From an uncultured Geobacter sp. (lineage in GTDB: Bacteria; Desulfobacterota; Desulfuromonadia; Geobacterales; DSM-12255): DNA of 35,593 nucleotides. Below are positions 10,463 through 23,623 of this stretch, one piece after another. Made by a program: the position numbers and the translations under genes. Where the stretch lies: the NCBI GenBank assembly GCA_937871715.1, contig CALMOE010000012.1, positions 1-35,593 on the forward strand, read 5' to 3'. The notes beneath the pieces are model-generated. The model was not told where the DNA came from and did not search any database. It saw only the letters and a program-made list of their open reading frames with translations. Position 1 is the stretch's first letter; each line of letters opens with the position of its first letter.

Positions 10463-10840
10463 TCAACCCTTGAGAACCGCCCTGACGCTTGAGACGATCC
10501 CCTGGGGTGAGAACGGCTTGCAGATGTAGCCGTCGGCGCCGGCCTCGGCGACGAGGGTTACCAACTCACTCTCCGGTTTCGAGGAGATGAACATGATGGG
10601 GATGTCCTGGCTGTGGGGCTGCTGCTTGAGGATCTTTGCCTTCTTGTTGCCGTCAAGGAGGGGCATCATGATGTCCATGATGATCAGGTCGGGACGGTTG
10701 TGGGTGGAGAAGATGTAGCTGTTGGCCTCGATGCCGTTGGCGGCGGTGAAAACCGTGTAGCCGGCCCCTTCCAGGGCATCCTTGGCCATGGCCAGCACCA
10801 GTTCGCTGTCGTCGATGATGAGGATCTTTTTTGCTGACAT
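10463..10840 (-). CDS. Single-domain response regulator (CheY-like)
   Basis: This 125-residue protein consists of one receiver domain. All key residues are present: the acidic pair Asp10-Asp11, the phosphoacceptor Asp56 in LIIMDIMMP, Ser86 in the switch position and Lys108 in YICKPF. An AAGGAG ribosome site overlaps the end of cheB 11 bp upstream, so it is the last gene of the chemosensory unit. It has no output domain and could be the diffusible output of the CheA kinase, or a phosphate sink. A flagellar-type CheY role cannot be told from sequence alone; the Asn-Lys-Lys stretch after the GNKK turn is unlike classical CheY. Confidence 0.88.
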   Translation of the reverse strand: MSAKKILIIDDSELVLAMAKDALEGAGYTVFTAANGIEANSYIFSTHNRPDLIIMDIMMPLLDGNKKAKILKQQPHSQDIPIMFISSKPESELVTLVAEAGADGYICKPFSPQGIVSSVRAVLKG

Positions 10841-10851
10841 TAATAGCTCCT

Positions 10852-11886
10852 TCAGTGGGAAAAGATTCTGCTGATGGCCGCCGGGATCTCCCCCAGCGGC
10901 AGTATTTCGTCGGCGGCGTTCAGGGCGATGGCCGCCTTTGGCATGCCGAAGATGACGCTGCTCTTCTCGTCCTGGACGATAGTGGCGCTGCCGCTCTCCC
11001 GCAGCATGGCCAGCCCCTGGGCGCCATCCCTCCCCATGCCGGTGAGGAGCACGCCGACTGACTCCGCCCCCCTGCTCTCCGCCAGGGAGGTGAAGAAGAC
11101 GTCGATGGATGGCTTGCAGCAGTTTACCGGCGGGGAGTCGGTGAGGATGAGGCGCTCCCCATCCAGGAGCATCTGGCAGTCGGTCGGGGCGACAATCACT
11201 TCACCCTCTCTGGGGATCTGACCCGACTCGGCCAGGCGGACCGGCAGGGGGCACTCCATGTCAAGCCACTGGGCGAGACCCCTGGCGAAGCCGGAGGCGA
11301 TGTGCTGCACCACGAATACCGTCCCCCTGAAATCGGCTGGCAGGCTCCTGACGATGCTCATCACCGCCTTGGGGCCTCCGGTGGAGGCGCCGATGGCCAG
11401 GATGCTCCTCCTGTTCTCCGGCCTGGCAACTGGCTGCGCCTGGCGGCTCCTCTGCCGGTTCATATGGTGGATCACCCGGATGCGGGAGAGGAGCCTGATC
11501 TTCTCCACCAGCCTTTCGAAGAACTCCCGATCATCATGGAGCACGGCCGAAGGCTTCCCCATGACATCCAGGGCCCCCTTCTTGATGGCGCTGAAGGCGA
11601 GCTTGACGTCGTTCTCCTCCAGGGTGGCGGAGAGGATGAGGATCGGGGTGGGGGCTCTGGCCATGATTGCCTCGGTGGCCTCCAGCCCCCCCATGACCGG
11701 CATGAGTATGTCCATGATTATGATGCTGGGCCTGAGCTCCTCAGCTATGGCCAACGCCTCGGCGCCGTTTGACGCCTCACCCACAACCTCCATGTCGGCC
11801 ATGCCTGCTAGTGCGTCGCGCAGCACGGTCCTGACGAGGAGGGAATCGTCCGCCAGAAGTATCCTGATCATCTGTCCTTTTTCCAT
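10852..11886 (-). CDS. cheB: Chemoreceptor glutamate methylesterase CheB
   Basis: This 344-residue two-domain protein removes methyl groups from (and deamidates) chemoreceptor glutamine/glutamate sites. The receiver domain has Asp13-Asp14, phosphoacceptor Asp59 (IIIMDILMP) and Lys111 (GKPS). After a basic linker the catalytic domain shows Ser168 in AIGASTGG, His195 in VVQHIASGFARGLAQWL and Asp287 in TGMGRDGAQG, a complete triad. It starts 3 bp after the cheA stop. A second ATG five codons downstream is an alternative start. The conserved receiver implies activation by phosphotransfer from the neighbouring CheA, giving adaptation of the receptor encoded two genes upstream. Confidence 0.95.
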   Translation of the reverse strand: MEKGQMIRILLADDSLLVRTVLRDALAGMADMEVVGEASNGAEALAIAEELRPSIIIMDILMPVMGGLEATEAIMARAPTPILILSATLEENDVKLAFSAIKKGALDVMGKPSAVLHDDREFFERLVEKIRLLSRIRVIHHMNRQRSRQAQPVARPENRRSILAIGASTGGPKAVMSIVRSLPADFRGTVFVVQHIASGFARGLAQWLDMECPLPVRLAESGQIPREGEVIVAPTDCQMLLDGERLILTDSPPVNCCKPSIDVFFTSLAESRGAESVGVLLTGMGRDGAQGLAMLRESGSATIVQDEKSSVIFGMPKAAIALNAADEILPLGEIPAAISRIFSH

Positions 11887-11889
11887 TAC

Positions 11890-13944
11890 CTAGCCTATGA
11901 GTGATTCCACCGTGTCCAGAAGGGTCCCCTGCTCGAAGGCCCCCTTGACGATGTATGCCTGGGCGCCGGCCTCCATGGCCTGGCGCTTGTGTTCGTCCTT
12001 GGATAGGGAGGAGACGATGATCACCGGCACCTCCCGGTACTCCTCCATGGCTCGCAGCCTGGCTGTCAGCTGGAAGCCGTTCAGCCCCGGCATCTCCACG
12101 TCGGAGATCACCAGGTCGAAGGCGGCGGTTGCCACCTTCTCCAGGGCATCCTCGGCGGAGATGGCTATGGTCACGTCGTAGCCGTGGGCGGTGAGGATGC
12201 TCTTCTCCATGGTGCGGGTGGTGATGGAGTCGTCCACCACCAGCACACTGCCGCGGGAGGCCCTTATCTGGCTTTCGTGGATCGCCTTGCGCATGTCGAC
12301 GCTGGAGACCCCCTCGGAGGTGGTGAAGATATCGGGGACATCAAGGATCAGGGCTGGGTTGCCGTCGCCGAGGATGGTGGCGCCGAAGGTGTGGCGCACC
12401 CTTTTGAGCTGCCCACCCAGGCTCTTGACGACGATCTCCGAGGTGCCGTTGTTCCTGTCGATGATGCAGGCCACCGCCTGGTCCCGCTGCTTGAGGATGA
12501 CCGCCGACACCTTGCCGCCGGAGATGAGCGCCTTCTGCTCCTGCAGGCCGAGGAGCCCGGCCAGGGAGATGAGGGGGACTGTGCTGTTCCGCACGGAGAT
12601 GACCTCCTTGCCGGCCACGGTGGAGATGTCCTCGGCGCGGATCTTGATGGTCTCCTGCACGTAGGAGAGGGGGATGGCGAAGGGCTGCTCGGCGCAGGTG
12701 ACGATCAGGGCGTCGATAACCGCCAGGGTGAGGGGGAGCTGCAGCTGCACCTCGGTATATGCCCCAACCTCGCTCTTCAGGGTCAGGTTCCCCTTGACCT
12801 TCTCGATACTCATCTTCACCACGTCCATCCCCACCCCGCGGCCGGAGATGTCGGTGACGATCTCGCTGGTGGAGAACCCCTGGCGCAGGGTCAGGTAGAG
12901 TGCCTCCTCGTCGCGCATCATCTCAGCCTCTTCCCTGTCGATGACGCCGCGGCGCAGGGCGGTCTGCTTGATCCTGTGGGGGTCCATGCCGGCCCCGTCG
13001 TCCCGGATCTCGATGGCCACGCTGTTCCCCTCGTGGCGGGCGGTGAGGCGGATCGTCCCGGCCCGTGGCTTCCCCCGGGCGACCCTCTCCTCGGGGAGCT
13101 CTATGCCATGGTCGACGGCGTTGGTGAGCATATGCAGGAACATCGGCTTTAGGCTCTCCAGGAGGATCCGGTCCACCTCGATATGGTCGCCGACAATCTC
13201 GAAGTTGACCTCCTTCCCCTGGGACTTGGAGAGGTCGCGCACCATGCGCACGTAGCCGTCGGTGATGGTCTTCAGGGGGAGCATGCGCAGAGCCATGGCC
13301 TCGGCATGGAGCTGCTGGATGATGAAGCCCAGGTAGAGGACATCCTCCTCCAGGTTGCGGTGGAAATCCTTCAGCCTTGCCAGGTTGTCCATACCATCAG
13401 ACTCCCGGCAGATCTCCTTCAGGTCGCTGGTCTTGTCCTCGAAGCGCTTCTTGTTGATGATCAGCTCCCCCAGGAGGTTCACCAGGGAGTCCAGGGTCTT
13501 GACGCTGGTCCTGACCGTGTCGATCTGGGTCTCCGCCTCCCCGCTCTCCTGGGTGGTTATCGCCTCTGCTGTCGAGCCGCCGCTGTCAAAGGCAGCGATG
13601 AACTTCTCCAGGTCGATTGGCGATGGTGCCCCCTTGGCCAGGGCGTCGGTCATCCGGTTAATGGCATCGGTACCCTGGAGGAGGAGATCCACGCCGGCGC
13701 TGTCCACCGCCCGCTCCCCATCCTCCATCTCCTTGAGGAAATCCTCCATCCGGTGGGCGATGACGCTGATATCCTCGAAGCCGAGCATCCGGGCGGAGCC
13801 CTTGAGGGTATGGGCGTTGCGCAAAAGGTCGTGGATAAGCACCTTGTTGCCCGGCTCCTTTTCCAGCACCAGGAGCCGGTTCTGCAGCGAGCCGATATGC
13901 TCTTCCGCCTCTTTTAGAAAGATGTCCAGATATTTGGTTGCCAT
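11890..13944 (-). CDS. cheA: Hybrid chemotaxis histidine kinase CheA with C-terminal receiver
   Basis: This 684-residue kinase has an HPt domain at the N-terminus with phosphorylatable His45 in NAHTLKGSARMLGF. After a short linker without an obvious P2 domain comes the dimerisation helix pair (VRTSVKTLDSLVNLLGELIINKKRF). The HATPase domain has MLTNAVDHGIELPEER, EIRDDGAGMD and GRGVGMDVV. A CheW-like regulatory domain and a C-terminal receiver (VLVVDDSITTRTMEKSIL, phosphoacceptor in LVISDVEMPGLNG, lysine in YIVKG) complete it. Hybrid CheA with a receiver is typical of non-flagellar chemosensory systems such as Wsp or Frz/Dif-like sets. The attached receiver could be the direct target or a sink competing with CheB and the separate single receiver. 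Ribosome site AGAGG lies 5 bp before the ATG. Confidence 0.95.
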   Translation of the reverse strand: MATKYLDIFLKEAEEHIGSLQNRLLVLEKEPGNKVLIHDLLRNAHTLKGSARMLGFEDISVIAHRMEDFLKEMEDGERAVDSAGVDLLLQGTDAINRMTDALAKGAPSPIDLEKFIAAFDSGGSTAEAITTQESGEAETQIDTVRTSVKTLDSLVNLLGELIINKKRFEDKTSDLKEICRESDGMDNLARLKDFHRNLEEDVLYLGFIIQQLHAEAMALRMLPLKTITDGYVRMVRDLSKSQGKEVNFEIVGDHIEVDRILLESLKPMFLHMLTNAVDHGIELPEERVARGKPRAGTIRLTARHEGNSVAIEIRDDGAGMDPHRIKQTALRRGVIDREEAEMMRDEEALYLTLRQGFSTSEIVTDISGRGVGMDVVKMSIEKVKGNLTLKSEVGAYTEVQLQLPLTLAVIDALIVTCAEQPFAIPLSYVQETIKIRAEDISTVAGKEVISVRNSTVPLISLAGLLGLQEQKALISGGKVSAVILKQRDQAVACIIDRNNGTSEIVVKSLGGQLKRVRHTFGATILGDGNPALILDVPDIFTTSEGVSSVDMRKAIHESQIRASRGSVLVVDDSITTRTMEKSILTAHGYDVTIAISAEDALEKVATAAFDLVISDVEMPGLNGFQLTARLRAMEEYREVPVIIVSSLSKDEHKRQAMEAGAQAYIVKGAFEQGTLLDTVESLIG

Positions 13945-13992: not shown

Positions 13993-15729
13993 CTATACCT
14001 CTTCCTCGGCCAGGGTCTGAAGCTTCTCAGTGAGGGTGATGATCTCGGCGATGGCCCTCTCCGTCTCCCTGGCGCTCCCCGCCACCTGCTGGGCCACGTC
14101 GCGCACCTCGTTCATTGTGTCGGCCATCTGCTCGCAGGCCGAGGTCTGCTGCTGGGTGGAGAGGGTGATCTCCTTGGCTGAGCGGGCGGTATCCTCCACC
14201 AGGCCGATGATGCTGCCGAAGGAGAGATGCACCTTGTCCACCAGCTGGGCCGCAGCATCCACCGCCTTGGTCCCCTCCTCGGTGACCATGATGGTCGAGT
14301 TGGTTGCCTTCTGTATCTCCTCGATGAGCCCCTTGATCTGCCTCGTGGCGTCCACGGTCCGCTCGGCCAGGCGGCGTACCTCCTGGGCGACGATGGCAAA
14401 GCGTTTCCCCGCCTCTCCTGCGCCGGCGGCCTCGATGGCCGCATTGAGGGCCAGGAGGTTGGTCTGGTCGCTGATCTCGTCGATGATCTCCACGATGCCG
14501 CCGATCTTCTGGCTGTTGTCACCCAGCTTGAGCATGCTCTCGGCGATGCTCTGCACCTGGGCCTTGAGGACCGCCATCCCGTCGATGGCGTTGCTCACCT
14601 CGCCGGTCCCTTCGTGGCAGCTCTTGCTGGTGGTTTCGGCGATATGCTCGACCGACAGGGCGTTTTCGGTGATCTGCTTGGCGGTGATGGCGATCTCCTC
14701 CGAGGTGGTGGTCACCTCCTGGACTGCCGCCGCCTGCTGGGCAGCCCCCGAGGACTGCTGCACGCTGATGGCCATCATCTCGTTGGCCGAGCTGGATAGG
14801 TGGACGATGGCATCCTTGATGGAGGCCATGAGGCGGTTGCTCTTCTCGATCTCCACCTTCAGGTTCTTGACTATGACCGTGGTCATCTTGTTGAATGCCT
14901 CCGCCAGGGTACCGATCTCGTCGTTGCTCTCGATGACCACCTCCTCGTCCAGGTTGCCGTCGGCGATGCGCCGCGCCACCTGGGTCAGCCTGAGGAGGGG
15001 CTGGGTGTACCTGCTGACCACGATGTAGATGGTGATGCTGGAGATGAGGAGCATGATGAGCATGGCGCCGATGATCTGCATCTTGAGGGCGGCGATCTTC
15101 TGCTGGGTCTTGACCATGGAGAAGCCGATGCGGAACCCCCCCCAGTGCTTACCCTTGACAAGCACGGGTGCGGAGATGTCCCACATCTGCTCGCCGGTGT
15201 CCCGCTTGTAGACCTGCTTCAAGAGCTCCTGCTGGTTCTTGGCCGCCGCCAAGCCCACCGGATCGTTGAAGAGCCGCTTGGTGCGGTTGCTCAGCTTGTC
15301 CTTCTCCTTGTCGCCGGTGAGGGGCTGGGAGTACTTGGTGTTGTGGGTGGGGAGGTAGCCGTTGCGGTCCACCAGGGCGGCGAAGACCACCTGCTCGTCC
15401 TTGAGGTACTCGTCCTGGATCTCTTTTATGGTCTTGTCCAGGTAGGAGTCGTACTTGGTTGTGTATTTCGGCGGATCGGTATTTGGGATCGGCACGTAGT
15501 TGGTGTCGAAGATGTCGTCCAGGGTGAAGCGGCCGCTGGCCAGGGCCTCTTCCAGGAGCTGCTCCATCATCTTCGCCCCGGTCATGGCCTCGATCCTCCC
15601 CTTGGAGAGGAGCTCCTCCTCCATGTGCCTGGTGCGGGAGTTGACGAAGTAGATGGTGAATACGGTCATGATGACGACCATAACCATGATGAGGATGGCG
15701 GCGATCTTGATGGAGAGTTTTCTCGACAT
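13993..15729 (-). CDS. Methyl-accepting chemotaxis protein with Cache-like sensor
   Basis: This 578-residue membrane receptor starts with an AAGGAG site 6 bp before the ATG. TM1 lies at about residues 8-28. A periplasmic domain of about 180 residues follows, with [15 protein letters not shown] and [26 protein letters not shown], resembling Cache-type ligand-binding domains. TM2 ([20 protein letters not shown]) leads into a HAMP domain ([23 protein letters not shown]). The cytoplasmic signalling region contains the conserved hairpin tip [34 protein letters not shown]. There is no CheR-docking pentapeptide at the C-terminus. The ligand is unknown. Being the only receptor in the cluster, it is the likely dedicated input for CheA. 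Confidence 0.93.
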
Positions 15730-15779: not shown

Positions 15780-16319
15780 TTAATCGTGGTTTACCGTCAG
15801 CTCCGGCGATTCCAGCAGCCTGACGATGTCCAGCAGCATGGCCATCCGGCCGTCGTGGTTGATCTGGCCGCGGATGAACTCCCTGGCCCCTGCTGCAACC
15901 GACTTGACCACCGGTTCGAACATCTCCAGGGGGAGAGCCACCACCCCCTGCACCCCCTCGGTGATGATGCCGGTGGTGAATCCGTCCCGCTTGATGACGA
16001 TGATCCTCGCCCCGGCGGTGAGCTGGGGGGAGGGGATACCCAGAAGGGACCTGATATCCACCGCGGCGATGATCTCCCCGCGCAGGTTGAAGATGCCGAC
16101 GATCAACTGCTGCACCCCCGGGACCTTCACCAGCTTGGGGACGCGGATCACCTCGGAGGCGTGGATGGTCTCAAAGGCGTAGGTCTCGCCTCCGAGGGTG
16201 AAGGTGACGCACTCCAGCAGCTCCTCCGGGCTCTCCTCGCTCTCCGCCAGCCCCTGCCAGTACTCCTGGCGCATCTCTTCCAGTATGGAGCGGATATCGT
16301 ATGTTCTGTTGTCAGCCAT
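15780..16319 (-). CDS. cheW: Chemotaxis coupling protein CheW
   Basis: This 179-residue cytoplasmic protein links the receptor to CheA. The N-terminal 35 residues are an acidic helical extension (SILEEMRQEYWQGLAESEESPEELLE). The CheW fold follows: CVTFTLGGETYAFETIHASEVIRV, VPGVQQLIVGIFNLRGEIIAAVDIRSLLG and IIVIKRDGFTTGIITEGVQGVVALP. The NLRGEIIAAVDIR block is the CheW signature. The extension makes it longer than E. coli CheW and could serve specificity for this cluster. It lies between cheR and the receptor gene with short gaps and an AGAGGTTG ribosome site. Confidence 0.93.
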   Translation of the reverse strand: MADNRTYDIRSILEEMRQEYWQGLAESEESPEELLECVTFTLGGETYAFETIHASEVIRVPKLVKVPGVQQLIVGIFNLRGEIIAAVDIRSLLGIPSPQLTAGARIIVIKRDGFTTGIITEGVQGVVALPLEMFEPVVKSVAAGAREFIRGQINHDGRMAMLLDIVRLLESPELTVNHD

Positions 16320-16343: not shown

Positions 16344-18203
16344 TCAGGCCGCGGTGGCGGTATCCACCCGCAGGATCTCCTCCCGCAGCTGTTCGAGGAA
16401 CACCTCCCTGGAGAGGCCGCCCGAGTAGGGGATGATCGACTCCCGCGCGCTCTTCTCCAGGAGTTTCATGCTGTTCTTCAGCTCCCGCAGGCCGTCCTTC
16501 TCCTGTCCGGTGCGGAAGTAGAGTCTCCCCAGATGGTAGTGGGGCATGACGAAGTCCATCTTCAGGAGGATCGCCTTTCTGTACTCCTGGCAAGCCTCCC
16601 TCTCACGGTCCAGCATCTCATGGACCAGGCCCCGGAGTAAGTAGGCCTCGGGGAGGAGGTCGTCCAACTGCAGCGCACGGCCGCACTGCTCCAGGGCTGC
16701 GTCGAAGCTGCCGTTGTTGGCAAGGATCAGGGCGATGCCGAGCATCGCCCCGGTATGTTCATGCTCTTTCTCCAGTATCCGGCGGAAAACGGTTTCAGCC
16801 TGTTCGAACCTCTCCTCCTCCACCAGGGTGAGGGCCTCGGCGTGGAGCTCCTCGATACTCTTCTCCCGGGCCGCCGTGGCAGTGGGCGTCGCCCTGTCCG
16901 GCCGGGGAGGGGGAGGTGCTGGCCTGGACTGGGGCAGGCTTTTTTGGGGGGGAGCCGCCACTGTCCCGCTCCCAGCTTCGGGGTACTGCTCCCTCTTGCG
17001 GTAGTAGAAGCCGCCGTCGTGCAGCTGACGCTCGAACCTGGTGGAGATGTGGGAGAGGGTCTCCGAGTGGCCGAGGAATAGGTACCCCCCCTCCCTGAGG
17101 GAGGAGGCGAACCCCTCCACCACCCGCTTGGTGGTGGGGGTGGTGAAGTAGATCATCACGTTGCGGCAGAAGATGGCATCGAACCCCTCCCCCTGCATGG
17201 GGTGCGGTGAGTTATGGGCCGTCTGCAGGTTGAGGTGGGCGAACTCCACCAGGCTCTTCACCTCGTCCCTGACCACGAAACTGGCGCCGATCCTGCGGAA
17301 GTACCTCTCCAGGTAATGCTTCTCCGTGACTCTGAGCTTCCACTCGCTGTAGACCCCCTCCCTGGCCCGCATCAGGGAGCGGTTGTTGATATCCGTCGCC
17401 AGGATCCTGATGTCCCGCTTGTCCCAGTCGGGAAGCGCTTCCATGACCGCCATGGCCATGGTGTAGGGCTCCTCACCGGTGGAGCAGCCGGCGGACCAGA
17501 GGCGGATTCTGCCGTCGGCCCCTCTACCGGCGATCTCCGGCAGGACCTGCTGCATCAGGGCGGAGAAATGGGCATGGTAGCGGAAGAAGAAGGTCTCGCC
17601 AACGGTGAGGAACTGGAGGAGTTTCTGCAGCTCCTGGCGGCGATCCATGTTGGCGGTGAGGTAGTCGTAATAGTCGCCATAGGAGCCTATTCTCAGGGCC
17701 GCCATGCGGCTCTCCAGCCCCCGCTCCAGCATCTTGATGTTGCGCCTCTCGAAGTGCAGGCCACTGTGGGCGATGAGGTAGTCGTGGAACTTCTGGTGCT
17801 CCTCCTGGGTGAGATGGATGGGGGGGTGCAACGCCCCCCGTCGCTTCCTGCCGCTGGCGATGGTCTCCACATCCTCCCGCAGCCTGGCCAGGTCCACCGG
17901 CCTGCAGATGAAGTCGAAGAGGTGGAGCAGTTCGAACTCCAGGTCAGGGAAGTCGGAGATGACGATTACCGGCAGCTGCTTCAGGGATGCGGAGCGCTGC
18001 AGGCGGTTGACGATCTCGATGGCCGACAACTCCGGCATGGCCACTTCGATGATGATTAGATCCGGCCTTAGCTCCATCGCCACCTGCACCGCATCGATGC
18101 CGACCGGTACGCAGGTGGGGTTGTGCCCCTCGGAAATTAAAAAGCTGCTCAGTATGCCGCAGATATCCTCGTTCTGGTTTATGATCAGGATGTTCAGTTT
18201 CAT
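16344..18203 (-). CDS. cheR: Receiver-CheR-TPR fusion: chemoreceptor methyltransferase with degenerate receiver
   Basis: This protein has about 619 residues and three parts. Residues of about 1-115 form a receiver-like domain lacking the phosphorylation chemistry: the acidic pair is Asn9-Gln10, the phosphoacceptor position is Glu53 (LIIIEVAMPE) and the usual Lys is Arg101 (FICRPV). Residues of about 130-400 are CheR, an S-adenosylmethionine-dependent methyltransferase for receptor glutamates, with LTVGETFFFRY, LWSAGCSTGEEPYTMAM, ILATDINNRSL, FDAIFCRNVMIYF and GGYLFLGHSET. A Pro-rich linker is followed by about four TPR-like repeats (SIEELHAEALTLVEEERFEQAE onward). TPR-bearing CheR occurs in Wsp- and Frz-like systems. 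The ATG at 18203 is preferred; a TTG three codons upstream is possible. The gene starts 46 bp after ispF with no promoter visible. Confidence 0.93.
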   Translation of the reverse strand: MKLNILIINQNEDICGILSSFLISEGHNPTCVPVGIDAVQVAMELRPDLIIIEVAMPELSAIEIVNRLQRSASLKQLPVIVISDFPDLEFELLHLFDFICRPVDLARLREDVETIASGRKRRGALHPPIHLTQEEHQKFHDYLIAHSGLHFERRNIKMLERGLESRMAALRIGSYGDYYDYLTANMDRRQELQKLLQFLTVGETFFFRYHAHFSALMQQVLPEIAGRGADGRIRLWSAGCSTGEEPYTMAMAVMEALPDWDKRDIRILATDINNRSLMRAREGVYSEWKLRVTEKHYLERYFRRIGASFVVRDEVKSLVEFAHLNLQTAHNSPHPMQGEGFDAIFCRNVMIYFTTPTTKRVVEGFASSLREGGYLFLGHSETLSHISTRFERQLHDGGFYYRKREQYPEAGSGTVAAPPQKSLPQSRPAPPPPRPDRATPTATAAREKSIEELHAEALTLVEEERFEQAETVFRRILEKEHEHTGAMLGIALILANNGSFDAALEQCGRALQLDDLLPEAYLLRGLVHEMLDREREACQEYRKAILLKMDFVMPHYHLGRLYFRTGQEKDGLRELKNSMKLLEKSARESIIPYSGGLSREVFLEQLREEILRVDTATAA

Positions 18204-21105: not shown

Positions 21106-22173
21106 ATGAACATAGAACAGATGAAGAGCGTGCTGCGGGAGATCGTGACGAAGACCGACCTCACCCCCTGCGTGGTAGGCCATCGCGGCGTGGGGAAGAG
21201 CGCAGCCATCTCCCAGCTCTGCAGGGAGATCGGCTATGGCTACGTACCCTTGCGCCTGGGGCAGATGGAGGTGGGGGACCTGGTGGGGATACCCTACCGG
21301 GAGGGGGGGGTGATGCACTGGTCCAGGCCCTCCTGGTGGCCGATGCCCGAAGCCCCCCCCACGGTGGTCCACTGCGACGAGCTGAACCGCGCCCAGCAGG
21401 AGGACACCCTGCAGGCGATCTTCCAGTTCGTCGAGCCCCCAATGACGGGTATGGAGAGGGCGCTGCACACCCACAAGCTTCACCCCAGTCACAGGGTGAT
21501 CATCACCATCAACCCGCCGGACGGCACCTATCAGGTGGCCCCCCTGGACAGGGCACTGGTGGATCGGATGATAATGCTCTACGTGGAGAGCGATTACGCC
21601 TGCTGGTCCAGGTATGCCAGGCAGCAGGGGTTTGACGCCGGGGTGCGGGAGTTCCTGGCCGCCAACCAGAACCTCCTGGCCGTCGCCAACCTCCCCCTGG
21701 AGATGGAGGCTGAGCCGAGCGAGCGGGGGTGGGAGATGGTGAGCATCCTGCGCCAGCGCTGCTCTTTCCCCAGGGAGCTGGAGATGGAGGTGTACGCCGG
21801 CATCATCGGCCGGGAGGCGGCCATCGCCTTCTTGCGCTGGCAGAACGAGCAGCACTCACGACCCCTGACGGCCATGGAGATTCTCCACGACTGGGAGAAG
21901 GTCTCTGCCAGGGCCGAGTCCCAGCGGGAGGAGCGCCACTCCGCAACAATCGCCTCCCTCCTGGACCATTTCCGCGGCGGCGGGGAGCTCTCCGACCCCC
22001 AGGAGGAGAACCTGGTGAGCTACCTGGACATCCTCCCCCGGGACCTGCGCTTCGCCGCGGTGAAGAGCCTGATCACCATCCCGACGGTGGCGCTGCGCCT
22101 GGCCAGCGACCGCCACGACCGGGTGGTCTTGGAGGCGATCCGGGCCATCGGCGGAGAGGCGGCAGGTTGTTGA
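21106..22173 (+). CDS. MoxR-family AAA+ ATPase
   Basis: This 355-residue ATPase is probably a chaperone acting with the VWA-domain protein encoded next. Walker A is GHRGVGKS (residues 25-32), Walker B is VVHCDE (87-92), sensor 1 is TINP (134-137), and the LDRALVDR block carries the arginine-finger region. The segment LGQMEVGDLVGIPYREGGVMHW matches the substrate loop of MoxR proteins that open complexes by ATP hydrolysis. The C-terminal 130 residues are helical and charged, ending in a HEAT-like stretch. The GAAGGA ribosome site supports the ATG. The last two sense codons and the stop lie inside the left end of a palindromic repeat, so the natural C-terminus may have been altered by its arrival. 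Confidence 0.88.
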   Translation: MNIEQMKSVLREIVTKTDLTPCVVGHRGVGKSAAISQLCREIGYGYVPLRLGQMEVGDLVGIPYREGGVMHWSRPSWWPMPEAPPTVVHCDELNRAQQEDTLQAIFQFVEPPMTGMERALHTHKLHPSHRVIITINPPDGTYQVAPLDRALVDRMIMLYVESDYACWSRYARQQGFDAGVREFLAANQNLLAVANLPLEMEAEPSERGWEMVSILRQRCSFPRELEMEVYAGIIGREAAIAFLRWQNEQHSRPLTAMEILHDWEKVSARAESQREERHSATIASLLDHFRGGGELSDPQEENLVSYLDILPRDLRFAAVKSLITIPTVALRLASDRHDRVVLEAIRAIGGEAAGC

Positions 22174-22303
22174 AAACGAAGTTTCAGCGCAGCTAAAAAC
22201 GGCCATCTCGCCGCCGTCCTCGAAAGCCGCCGTGTGCGGCGTAGCGCTGCTACGCCTCCGTGGGGCTTTCTGGGGTGCGACGATCTGACGGTTTTTGAAC
22301 AAC
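22166..22303. repeat. Interspersed imperfect palindrome, copy A
   Basis: The element has outer ends GTTGTT / AACAAC, A5/T5 inner ends, and an apical hairpin GCGTAGC-GCT-GCTACGC (22239-22255). It is about 90% identical over about 100 bp to a second copy at 30994-31114. Paired differences between the copies preserve the stem. It begins at the MoxR stop codon and ends inside the apparent start of the VWA gene. Confidence 0.85.
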
Positions 22304-23623
22304 CTTGATTATTATAAAGAACTGGCGCCGTGGCAGATGGCTGCTGCCGTAATGAGCCAGGAAGTGCAGAAATGGCCCGGCAGCACGAATGCAGGCGGTA
22401 GCCAGCTGCCGCCCCTCGACGGATACACCATGTCCCGAACCCTTGAAAACACCATCGTCCGCCTCCTTCGGGAGCGCCCCTTCTACGGCCACCTGCTGGT
22501 GGGGCTGCGCAAGGGGGTCGGGGGAGACGCCCCCCTGGGGATCACCCTGCGCCAGGGGATCCCCACCCTGACCGTCAACGACGGTCTCCTTGCCTCCTAC
22601 CCCCCCGGGGAGCGGGGAGCACTGCTGGAGCACTGTGTCCTCCACCTTCTCCACCTCCACCCCTCCAGGCGCAAGGAGCGCAGTCGCCACGACTGGGACC
22701 TGGCCTGCGACCTGGCCGTCAACGACCTGGTGGAGGGGATGCCCGCCGCGGCACCCCGGGCAGTTTACCTTTCCCTGCCGGAGGGGCTGGCGGCTGAGGA
22801 GTACTACCGCCTCCTGGTAGACCCCTTCGATACCGGCTCCATTGCCGGCAGCGGCAGCGGCAGCGCCAGCCGGGAAGAGCGGGGCAAGTCAGGCAAAGGT
22901 CACGGTGATGCCGCTGCCGAGGAGAGTGCCGCGCCACTCTGCGATGCCATGCCCCTGGATGACCACACCGTCTGGGAGGAGTCGGACAGCACCCCACTTC
23001 GCCTTGCGGAGGAGATGGTGCGCGGCATGGTGCGCCATGCCTGGCAGAGGTGCGACGGGGTGGTCCCCGGCGAGGTCCGCCCCCTGGTGGAGGGGCTGCT
23101 GGCCCCATCCCCCACCCCCTGGCGGATGGTGCTGCGCCAGTTCGTGGCCACCGCCGGCAGGATCGGCCGCCGCTCAACCTGGATGCGGGAGAGCCGCCGC
23201 TTCGGCCATGCCACCCCGGGGAGCAGGAAGCGGCGGCGCCTCTGTCTCCTCGTCGGCGTCGATGTGAGCGACTCCACCGATGCCTCGGAGCTGCGCGAGG
23301 CCTTTGCAGCCGAGCTGCTGCGCATAGCCCGGGGTAGGGACGCATCCCTGACAATCCTCTACGCCAACAGCCGCATACAGAAGATCGAGACCATGAAGGG
23401 TCATGCCGCCACTGTGGAGAGCTACCACGGCGGAGGCTTCACCGACCTGCGCCCTGTATTCGACCATGCCCGCACCATGCACCCCCGACCTGCGGCGGTG
23501 ATCTACCTCACCGACGGCATCGGACCGGCGCCGGAGAGGATGGAGTTCCCAACCCTCTGGGTGCTGACCCGCGAGGGGGAGAGGCCGGCCCCCTGGGGTG
23601 TGGAGCTCCGCCTGGAAGTCTGA
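22295..23623 (+). CDS. VWA-like/metallopeptidase-like protein (DUF2201 type), HExxH lost
   Basis: This protein has up to 442 residues. The TTG at 22295 lies in the palindromic repeat, so the true start is uncertain; ATGs at 22337, 22352 and 22430 are alternatives, none with a good ribosome site. The N-terminal part resembles the DUF2201 metallopeptidase domain, with RERPFYGHLLVGL, LEHCVLHLLHLHPSRR and HDWDLACDLAVNDLV. At the HExxH position it reads HCVLH (113-117), so the catalytic Glu is replaced by Cys. A Gly/Ser/charged linker (about 180-215) follows. The C-terminal VWA-like domain keeps a metal-ion site: DVSDS (323-327), Thr383 in GGGFTDL and Asp407 in YLTDG. Such proteins pair with MoxR ATPases, as here. 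Confidence 0.85.
   Translation: MNNLDYYKELAPWQMAAAVMSQEVQKWPGSTNAGGSQLPPLDGYTMSRTLENTIVRLLRERPFYGHLLVGLRKGVGGDAPLGITLRQGIPTLTVNDGLLASYPPGERGALLEHCVLHLLHLHPSRRKERSRHDWDLACDLAVNDLVEGMPAAAPRAVYLSLPEGLAAEEYYRLLVDPFDTGSIAGSGSGSASREERGKSGKGHGDAAAEESAAPLCDAMPLDDHTVWEESDSTPLRLAEEMVRGMVRHAWQRCDGVVPGEVRPLVEGLLAPSPTPWRMVLRQFVATAGRIGRRSTWMRESRRFGHATPGSRKRRRLCLLVGVDVSDSTDASELREAFAAELLRIARGRDASLTILYANSRIQKIETMKGHAATVESYHGGGFTDLRPVFDHARTMHPRPAAVIYLTDGIGPAPERMEFPTLWVLTREGERPAPWGVELRLEV

Follow-up and report, generated by a model that had tools for sequence, protein, structure and literature searches.

We found that a CheR methyltransferase encoded in the window (the whole stretch of 35,593 nucleotides that was analysed, from an uncultured Geobacter sp.) carries an N-terminal receiver (REC) domain in which the residues for phosphorylation have been replaced. 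It is one of 73 REC-CheR-TPR proteins, mostly orthologues, in which this chemistry was lost repeatedly, yet the domain was retained and is under purifying selection in its degenerate members. We favour, with moderate confidence, the explanation that the pseudo-receiver descends from an ancestral phospho-receiver whose chemistry was repeatedly lost, and whose alpha4-beta5-alpha5 surface was kept for phosphate-independent binding. As the domain is retained across the whole class despite the lost chemistry, its present role, judged from sequence, is probably to bind in a fixed manner and no longer to switch.

The gene and its parts are listed below, with residue numbers of the 619-aa form that begins at the ATG; the open reading frame form (622 aa) starts three residues earlier.

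16344-18203, minus strand: REC-CheR-TPR gene (ATG at 18203 with aaggag ahead of it; 619 aa)
17844-18203, minus strand: N-terminal pseudo-receiver REC, residues 1-120 (PF00072, AlphaFold2 model, and alignment of 73 orthologues)
18174-18179, minus strand: codons of N9-Q10 at the acidic-pair site (alignment with the window's CheY, CheB, and CheA receivers)
18045-18047, minus strand: codon of E53 at the phosphoacceptor Asp site (alignment; Glu in 6/6 of the window's family and 21/73 overall)
17955-17957, minus strand: codon of S83, the conserved Thr/Ser, retained (alignment; Ser in 62/73)
17901-17957, minus strand: shortened alpha4-beta5 stretch from S83 to R101 (18 residues apart versus 22-25 in ordinary receivers)
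17883-17885, minus strand: codon of R107 (K+6), a family-specific invariant (Arg in 73/73)
17811-17843, minus strand: REC-CheR linker, residues 121-131 (part with pLDDT under 50 in models)
16995-17810, minus strand: CheR_N and CheR methyltransferase, residues 132-403 (Pfam; catalytic and SAM residues present)
16449-16856, minus strand: TPR domain, residues 450-585 (Pfam TPR models; helices in the predicted model)

Pfam models match the protein in the order Response_reg (PF00072), CheR_N, CheR (188.8 bits), and TPR. The PF00072 match scores 38.6 bits against a cut-off of 30.2 and covers residues 8-115 of the 622-aa form (5-112 in the 619-aa numbering). AlphaFold2 predicted a confident receiver fold for the domain (mean pLDDT 91.3, pTM 0.86), and the best PDB fold matches of this model (Z up to 19.2) are receivers, including the FrzS pseudo-receiver. 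By its PF00072 score and its modelled (beta-alpha)5 fold the domain is a receiver, as the original prediction, made from the letters alone, had said when it placed a receiver layout at 17840-18203, an interval that agrees with the extent of the domain. The rest of the protein is a CheR-TPR, with a CheR SAM domain that has its catalytic residues and a C-terminal TPR. Alignment with the window's CheY, CheB-REC, and CheA-REC, which have D-D, D, S, and K, places N9, Q10, E53, S83, and R101 at the five receiver sites, instead of the full active-site set of a functional receiver. The three substitutions named earlier (Asn-Gln for the acidic pair, Glu for the acceptor, and Arg for the Lys) are all real, and the statement that the domain cannot be phosphorylated has its basis in the absence of both the acceptor Asp and the metal-binding pair. 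It is an Asp-less receiver, with a receiver fold and E53 in place of the acceptor. The Ser/Thr site (S83) and the beta5 aromatic F98 are retained, and helix alpha4 is short, comprising only 4-6 residues (88-91 or 86-91) in predicted models. The source genome has eight CheR matches, seven of them above cut-off; of these seven, judging by frame length, only the window's CheR is long and multidomain (frame of 628 aa versus 293-314 aa for the other six).

The gene is part of an operon-like run in the window, all on the minus strand, of ispD, ispF, REC-CheR-TPR, cheW, a receptor gene, hybrid cheA, cheB, cheY, and cysS. Its other chemosensory members are:

15780-16319, minus strand: cheW (Pfam PF01584)
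13993-15729, minus strand: methyl-accepting receptor with HAMP and the C-terminus LAEEEV (Pfam; end read from the sequence)
11890-13944, minus strand: hybrid CheA with Hpt, dimerisation, HATPase, CheW, and REC domains (Pfam; P2 not found)
10852-11886, minus strand: cheB with intact receiver (Pfam and alignment)
10463-10840, minus strand: cheY with intact receiver (Pfam and alignment)

Most orthologues reside in the same class-wide operon, ispD-ispF-[REC-CheR-TPR]-cheW-mcp-cheA/REC-cheB-(cheY)-cysS. The window's cluster is Frz-like in that a CheA-CheY fusion occurs together with a CheR-TPR. With regard to the multidomain response regulator of ACF-type clusters, it has hybrid CheA-REC and REC-CheR, but a single-domain CheY as the separate regulator. 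FrzCD is a cytoplasmic receptor; the window's receptor has a HAMP domain and, towards its N-terminus, a hydrophobic stretch. A cheY next to the operon scores high in the window's order and is mostly absent, at the cut-off used, from the class's other families, in which cysS comes immediately after cheB. At one locus (L211), a cheY-like gene separates REC-CheR-TPR from cheW, and two receptor genes follow; at another (L201), REC-CheR-TPR adjoins ispD-ispF, but the roughly 8 kb downstream of it contain no match to cheW, a receptor, or cheA. Elsewhere in the window (21106-23623), a 355-aa frame without Pfam match at 1e-6 precedes a DUF2201 gene (metallopeptidase-like and VWA-like).

Full REC-CheR-TPR proteins were found in 73 of the 277 genomes of the class and in 38 of the 141 genomes of the window's order. 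In the order, a wide score gap separates them from other CheRs: REC-CheR-TPR matches score at least 452 bits, and all other matches reach at most 274 bits. One match under the gap (G042:C68, 11-607, 257.8 bits), whose best frame had no REC coverage, was left out, and 17 of the 55 order genomes with a match carried only CheR or CheR-TPR. The 73 orthologues are 72 fetched stretches plus the window (for G034 the neighbourhood is short). Because ispF lies upstream in 51/73 loci and cheW was found in 68/73, the set consists mostly of orthologues by descent; the loci missing either gene include contig ends and a one-family group where ispF is not beside the gene. REC residues are present in every match above the threshold (the two shortest begin at profile position 41, with the rest of the domain visible) and no REC-less orthologue occurs among the 73 at this threshold; the set therefore contains no case of loss of the domain. 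In a phylum sample of 395 genomes, REC is absent from the nearest CheR-TPRs beyond the class. Control receivers and the rows for structure alignments came from among the matches listed in the genome-contig scan, which are mostly plain CheR.

All five receiver residues are intact in 7 of the 73 orthologues. The acceptor site is occupied by Glu (21), Asp (17), Gly (17), Ala (15), and Val, Ser, or Tyr (one each); the Lys site by K in 33, R in 15, and 12 other residue types among the remaining 25; and the Thr/Ser site by S in 62, T in one, and others in 10. Control receivers from the same loci keep the Asp in 35/35 CheY, 56/56 CheA-REC, and 53/54 CheB-REC (the last being a gap), have the Lys in all cases, and have the acidic pair in all except the gapped CheB-REC row. 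Within the window's family (n = 6), a Glu acceptor and a non-acidic pair are present in 6/6, and the Lys is retained in 4/6, so that Lys-to-Arg is a detail of two species. The homologue alignment suggested earlier as a check on conservation thus bore out the Glu and the non-acidic pair for the window's family and did not do so for the Glu across the class (21/73) or for the Arg within the family (2/6). Loss of the active site showed no pattern by eye with the presence of cheY in the operon, as both states occur with and without it, and we set this association aside.

We built a quick maximum-likelihood tree from the CheR and TPR columns, with five REC-less CheR-TPRs as outgroup; intact members appear in both of its main clades. 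Parsimony requires five changes of the intact state, or, with regain excluded, eight losses of the complete set and 10-12 losses of individual parts, exact counts that are soft as the tree has no bootstraps and 17 open forks. An intact ancestor followed by repeated loss of receiver residues is the likeliest history suggested by this topology.

The Glu at the acceptor site had been read as a possible fixed ON state, in which Glu53 and the neutral Asn-Gln would lock an active-like conformation and keep CheR permanently on or partner-bound in the window's clade. Among Asp-less receivers, Glu replaces the acceptor most often (26%) and can be activating together with other changes (PMC4395418, as far as its accessible text goes); PhoB D10A/D53E, which Asn-Gln/Glu resembles, is described as constitutively active in the title of entry 2jb9; and CheV D238E binds the receptor McpN at 8 nM, while unphosphorylated CheV does not (PMC12691637, accessible text). 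The presence of Glu53 with a non-acidic pair in all six members of the window's family and the retention of S83 and F98 also agree with such a mimic. However, Gly, Ala, Val, Ser, or Tyr occupies the acceptor site in 35 of the 73 orthologues, all of which keep the domain, and a Glu mimic cannot explain why REC persists where this residue is Gly, Ala, or Tyr. Most of the replacement codons can be reached from an Asp codon in a single step, a pattern expected under relaxed constraint, and alpha4, the usual outward carrier of the ON signal, is short in all orthologues. The conservation of Glu that marks a constitutive mimic is seen in the window's family and not among the orthologues overall. We therefore consider a phosphomimic unlikely, conceivable for the window's clade and not general, as Gly and Ala domains are kept as faithfully.

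The feature common to intact and degenerate members is a signature in the alpha4-beta5-alpha5 region. The spacing from Ser/Thr to Lys is 18 residues in 73/73 orthologues, intact or not, which amounts to a four-residue deletion relative to the 22 residues of CheY (35/35) and CheA-REC (56/56); it is 25 in CheB-REC (54/54), and 26 of the 28 other receivers among the matches listed have 22 residues as well. An Arg at K+6 (R107) is found in 73/73 orthologues versus 1/35 CheY and 0/56 CheA-REC, and T+8 (E91) is acidic throughout (Glu in 72, Asp in one). E89, D97, and P102 are each present in 73/73, independent of the active-site state. The deletion, R107, and E91 are rare or absent in control receivers, whereas E89, D97, and P102 are common there, so only the former three are special. 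Since the signature is fixed in intact and degenerate members alike, it appears to be older than the loss of chemistry and to outlast it. The Y-T coupling residues are also widely retained (the F98 position in 69/73 and the S83 position in 62/73). Mean entropy is lower in beta4 (0.83 bits), beta5 (1.13), and alpha4 (1.61) than in the five active-site columns (2.16).

These data also bear on the idea that REC is a partnerless leftover, kept for the folding or solubility of CheR-TPR or because its loss needs a clean in-frame deletion. REC is the fastest evolving of the three domains (median pairwise identity of 33% versus 50% for CheR and 43% for TPR), its active site is gone in many lineages, and the linker after it is modelled with low confidence, all as a leftover would lead one to expect. 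Against it, REC is missing from none of the 73, and its dN/dS of 0.00-0.29, measured in ten closely related pairs that all have degenerate sites, indicates purifying selection in degenerate members (CheR 0.07-0.24, TPR 0.04-0.24). E91, R107, and the deletion show no or almost no variation within the class, and plain CheR and REC-less CheR-TPR occur in the same genomes and phylum. We regard a mere leftover as quite improbable. The CheR catalytic and SAM residues are retained in 70-73 of the 73.

Control of CheR by phosphorylation, with REC genuinely switching in the seven intact species and some residual or indirect CheA control elsewhere, is very improbable: those seven have D/E-D/E, D, S, and K, and six have a CheA match at the locus (the seventh locus ends at a contig end), but the window's protein is without acceptor Asp, metal pair, and Lys, and the alpha4-beta5 stretch is shortened even in intact members. 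Homologues with intact Asp and Lys and demonstrated phosphorylation had been named as evidence against the original prediction; the part of this that concerns sequence is seen, with intact residues in 7/73 at the same locus.

The phosphate-independent binding that we favour suggests the following course. The class ancestor would have had a working receiver on CheR, as the tree position of the intact members indicates, and phosphorylation by CheA could have regulated CheR in much the way that it regulates CheB. Loss of the acidic pair, the Asp, and/or the Lys then followed in the window's lineage as well as in several more, and the switch would have gone with these residues. The domain may have been kept through phosphate-free docking via the face formed by the short alpha4, beta5, and alpha5. 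Its likely job would be to hold or orient CheR on its own receptor array, beside the TPR, with a putative effect on methylation. REC would then stand in for a receptor pentapeptide tether: no NWETF-like pentapeptide is apparent at the C-terminus of the receptor of the window's operon (which ends LAEEEV). Three features qualify this picture. REC as a whole evolves faster than CheR and TPR; E91, R107, and the deletion could serve to stabilise the short alpha4 from within instead of forming a docking site; and the retention of S83 and F98 suits a domain that still changes conformation.

A docking surface that recruits CheR to the hybrid CheA was proposed earlier. A binding or docking role fits best, and the usual route through the response-regulator-binding P2 domain is doubtful. 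P2 had no Pfam match in 11/11 operon CheAs, and in the eight operon CheAs with both flanking domains matched, these lie 43-52 residues apart. The accessible text of PMC5907407 describes such hybrid CheAs as P2-less. Because no P2 was found, docking via P2 is unlikely and was set aside, which concerns this route and not other CheA surfaces.

Two contigs suggest how such fusions may arise. On an unrelated metagenome contig of an unclassified bacterium (WY5.bin157; L089, 8977-10844), a complete intact receiver gene and a CheR-TPR frame overlap at the start of the latter, an arrangement that is possibly what the parent of the REC-CheR-TPR fusion looked like. A Candidatus Wallbacteria contig (L092, 6021-7433) encodes a CheR with an N-terminal REC-like stretch that scores 20.8 bits, under the Pfam cut-off, and is without canonical active-site residues; this is perhaps an independent degenerate REC-CheR fusion.

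Pseudo-receivers, CheR-TPR proteins, and hybrid-CheA clusters are already known, and we compared them with the window's protein as far as the accessible portions of the cited papers describe them. WspC and FrzF also have a CheR with C-terminal TPR, in clusters with P2-less hybrid CheA-REC (PMC3447774, PMC5907407, PMC2535941), but no N-terminal receiver is described there on their CheR. Deletion of the TPR alters the choice of methylation sites by FrzF (PMC2535941), so extra CheR domains can steer it. FrzS, RitR, and ChxR likewise have a receiver fold without acceptor Asp, for which Glu is the commonest replacement (PMC4395418, PMC12632262), whereas the window's REC is also without the acidic pair, has a short alpha4, and is fused to CheR. 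Receivers without Asp are uncommon (2.0% of 152,269 sampled), and how pseudo-receivers switch was termed a mystery in a 2025 perspective (both PMC12632262). CheB, encoded in the same operon, is likewise an adaptation enzyme that begins with a receiver, but the CheB receivers of the sister operons retain the active site and the CheR receiver of the window does not. CheV (CheW-REC) is a chemosensory protein with a receiver whose Asp-to-Glu mutant gains receptor binding (PMC12691637), yet it retains its own Asp and has a different partner domain. Geobacter Frz-like clusters with a CheA/Y fusion resemble the window in gene content and hybrid CheA, a likeness rather than an established identity of cluster, and no receiver on CheR is mentioned in the accessible text (PMC2577667). 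The Geobacter sulfurreducens Esn genes are a different set as far as described, with no CheR among them (PMC5585712, accessible text). In the PMC literature on fusions, CheR-TPR, and Geobacter chemosensory genes, in its accessible portions and with subscription papers outside this scope, we found no description of a receiver on CheR, nor of the combination of pseudo-receiver, CheR-TPR, and hybrid CheA seen here, with receivers that range from intact to dead across the class.

CheR is usually described as constitutive. Here, the same domain is found on the same enzyme, usually in the same operon, with and without phosphorylation chemistry; intact and degenerate versions coexist, and therefore the question of how pseudo-receivers switch becomes testable. 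The series makes it conceivable that CheA once controlled CheR directly. More tentatively, and with some doubt, both adaptation enzymes, CheB and CheR, may once have been phosphorylated by CheA via fused receivers, with the CheR arm frozen into a docking module in many descendants. If the ancestor did have a CheA-controlled CheR, one and the same enzyme would exist in this operon, within one class, in both a switchable and a frozen version.
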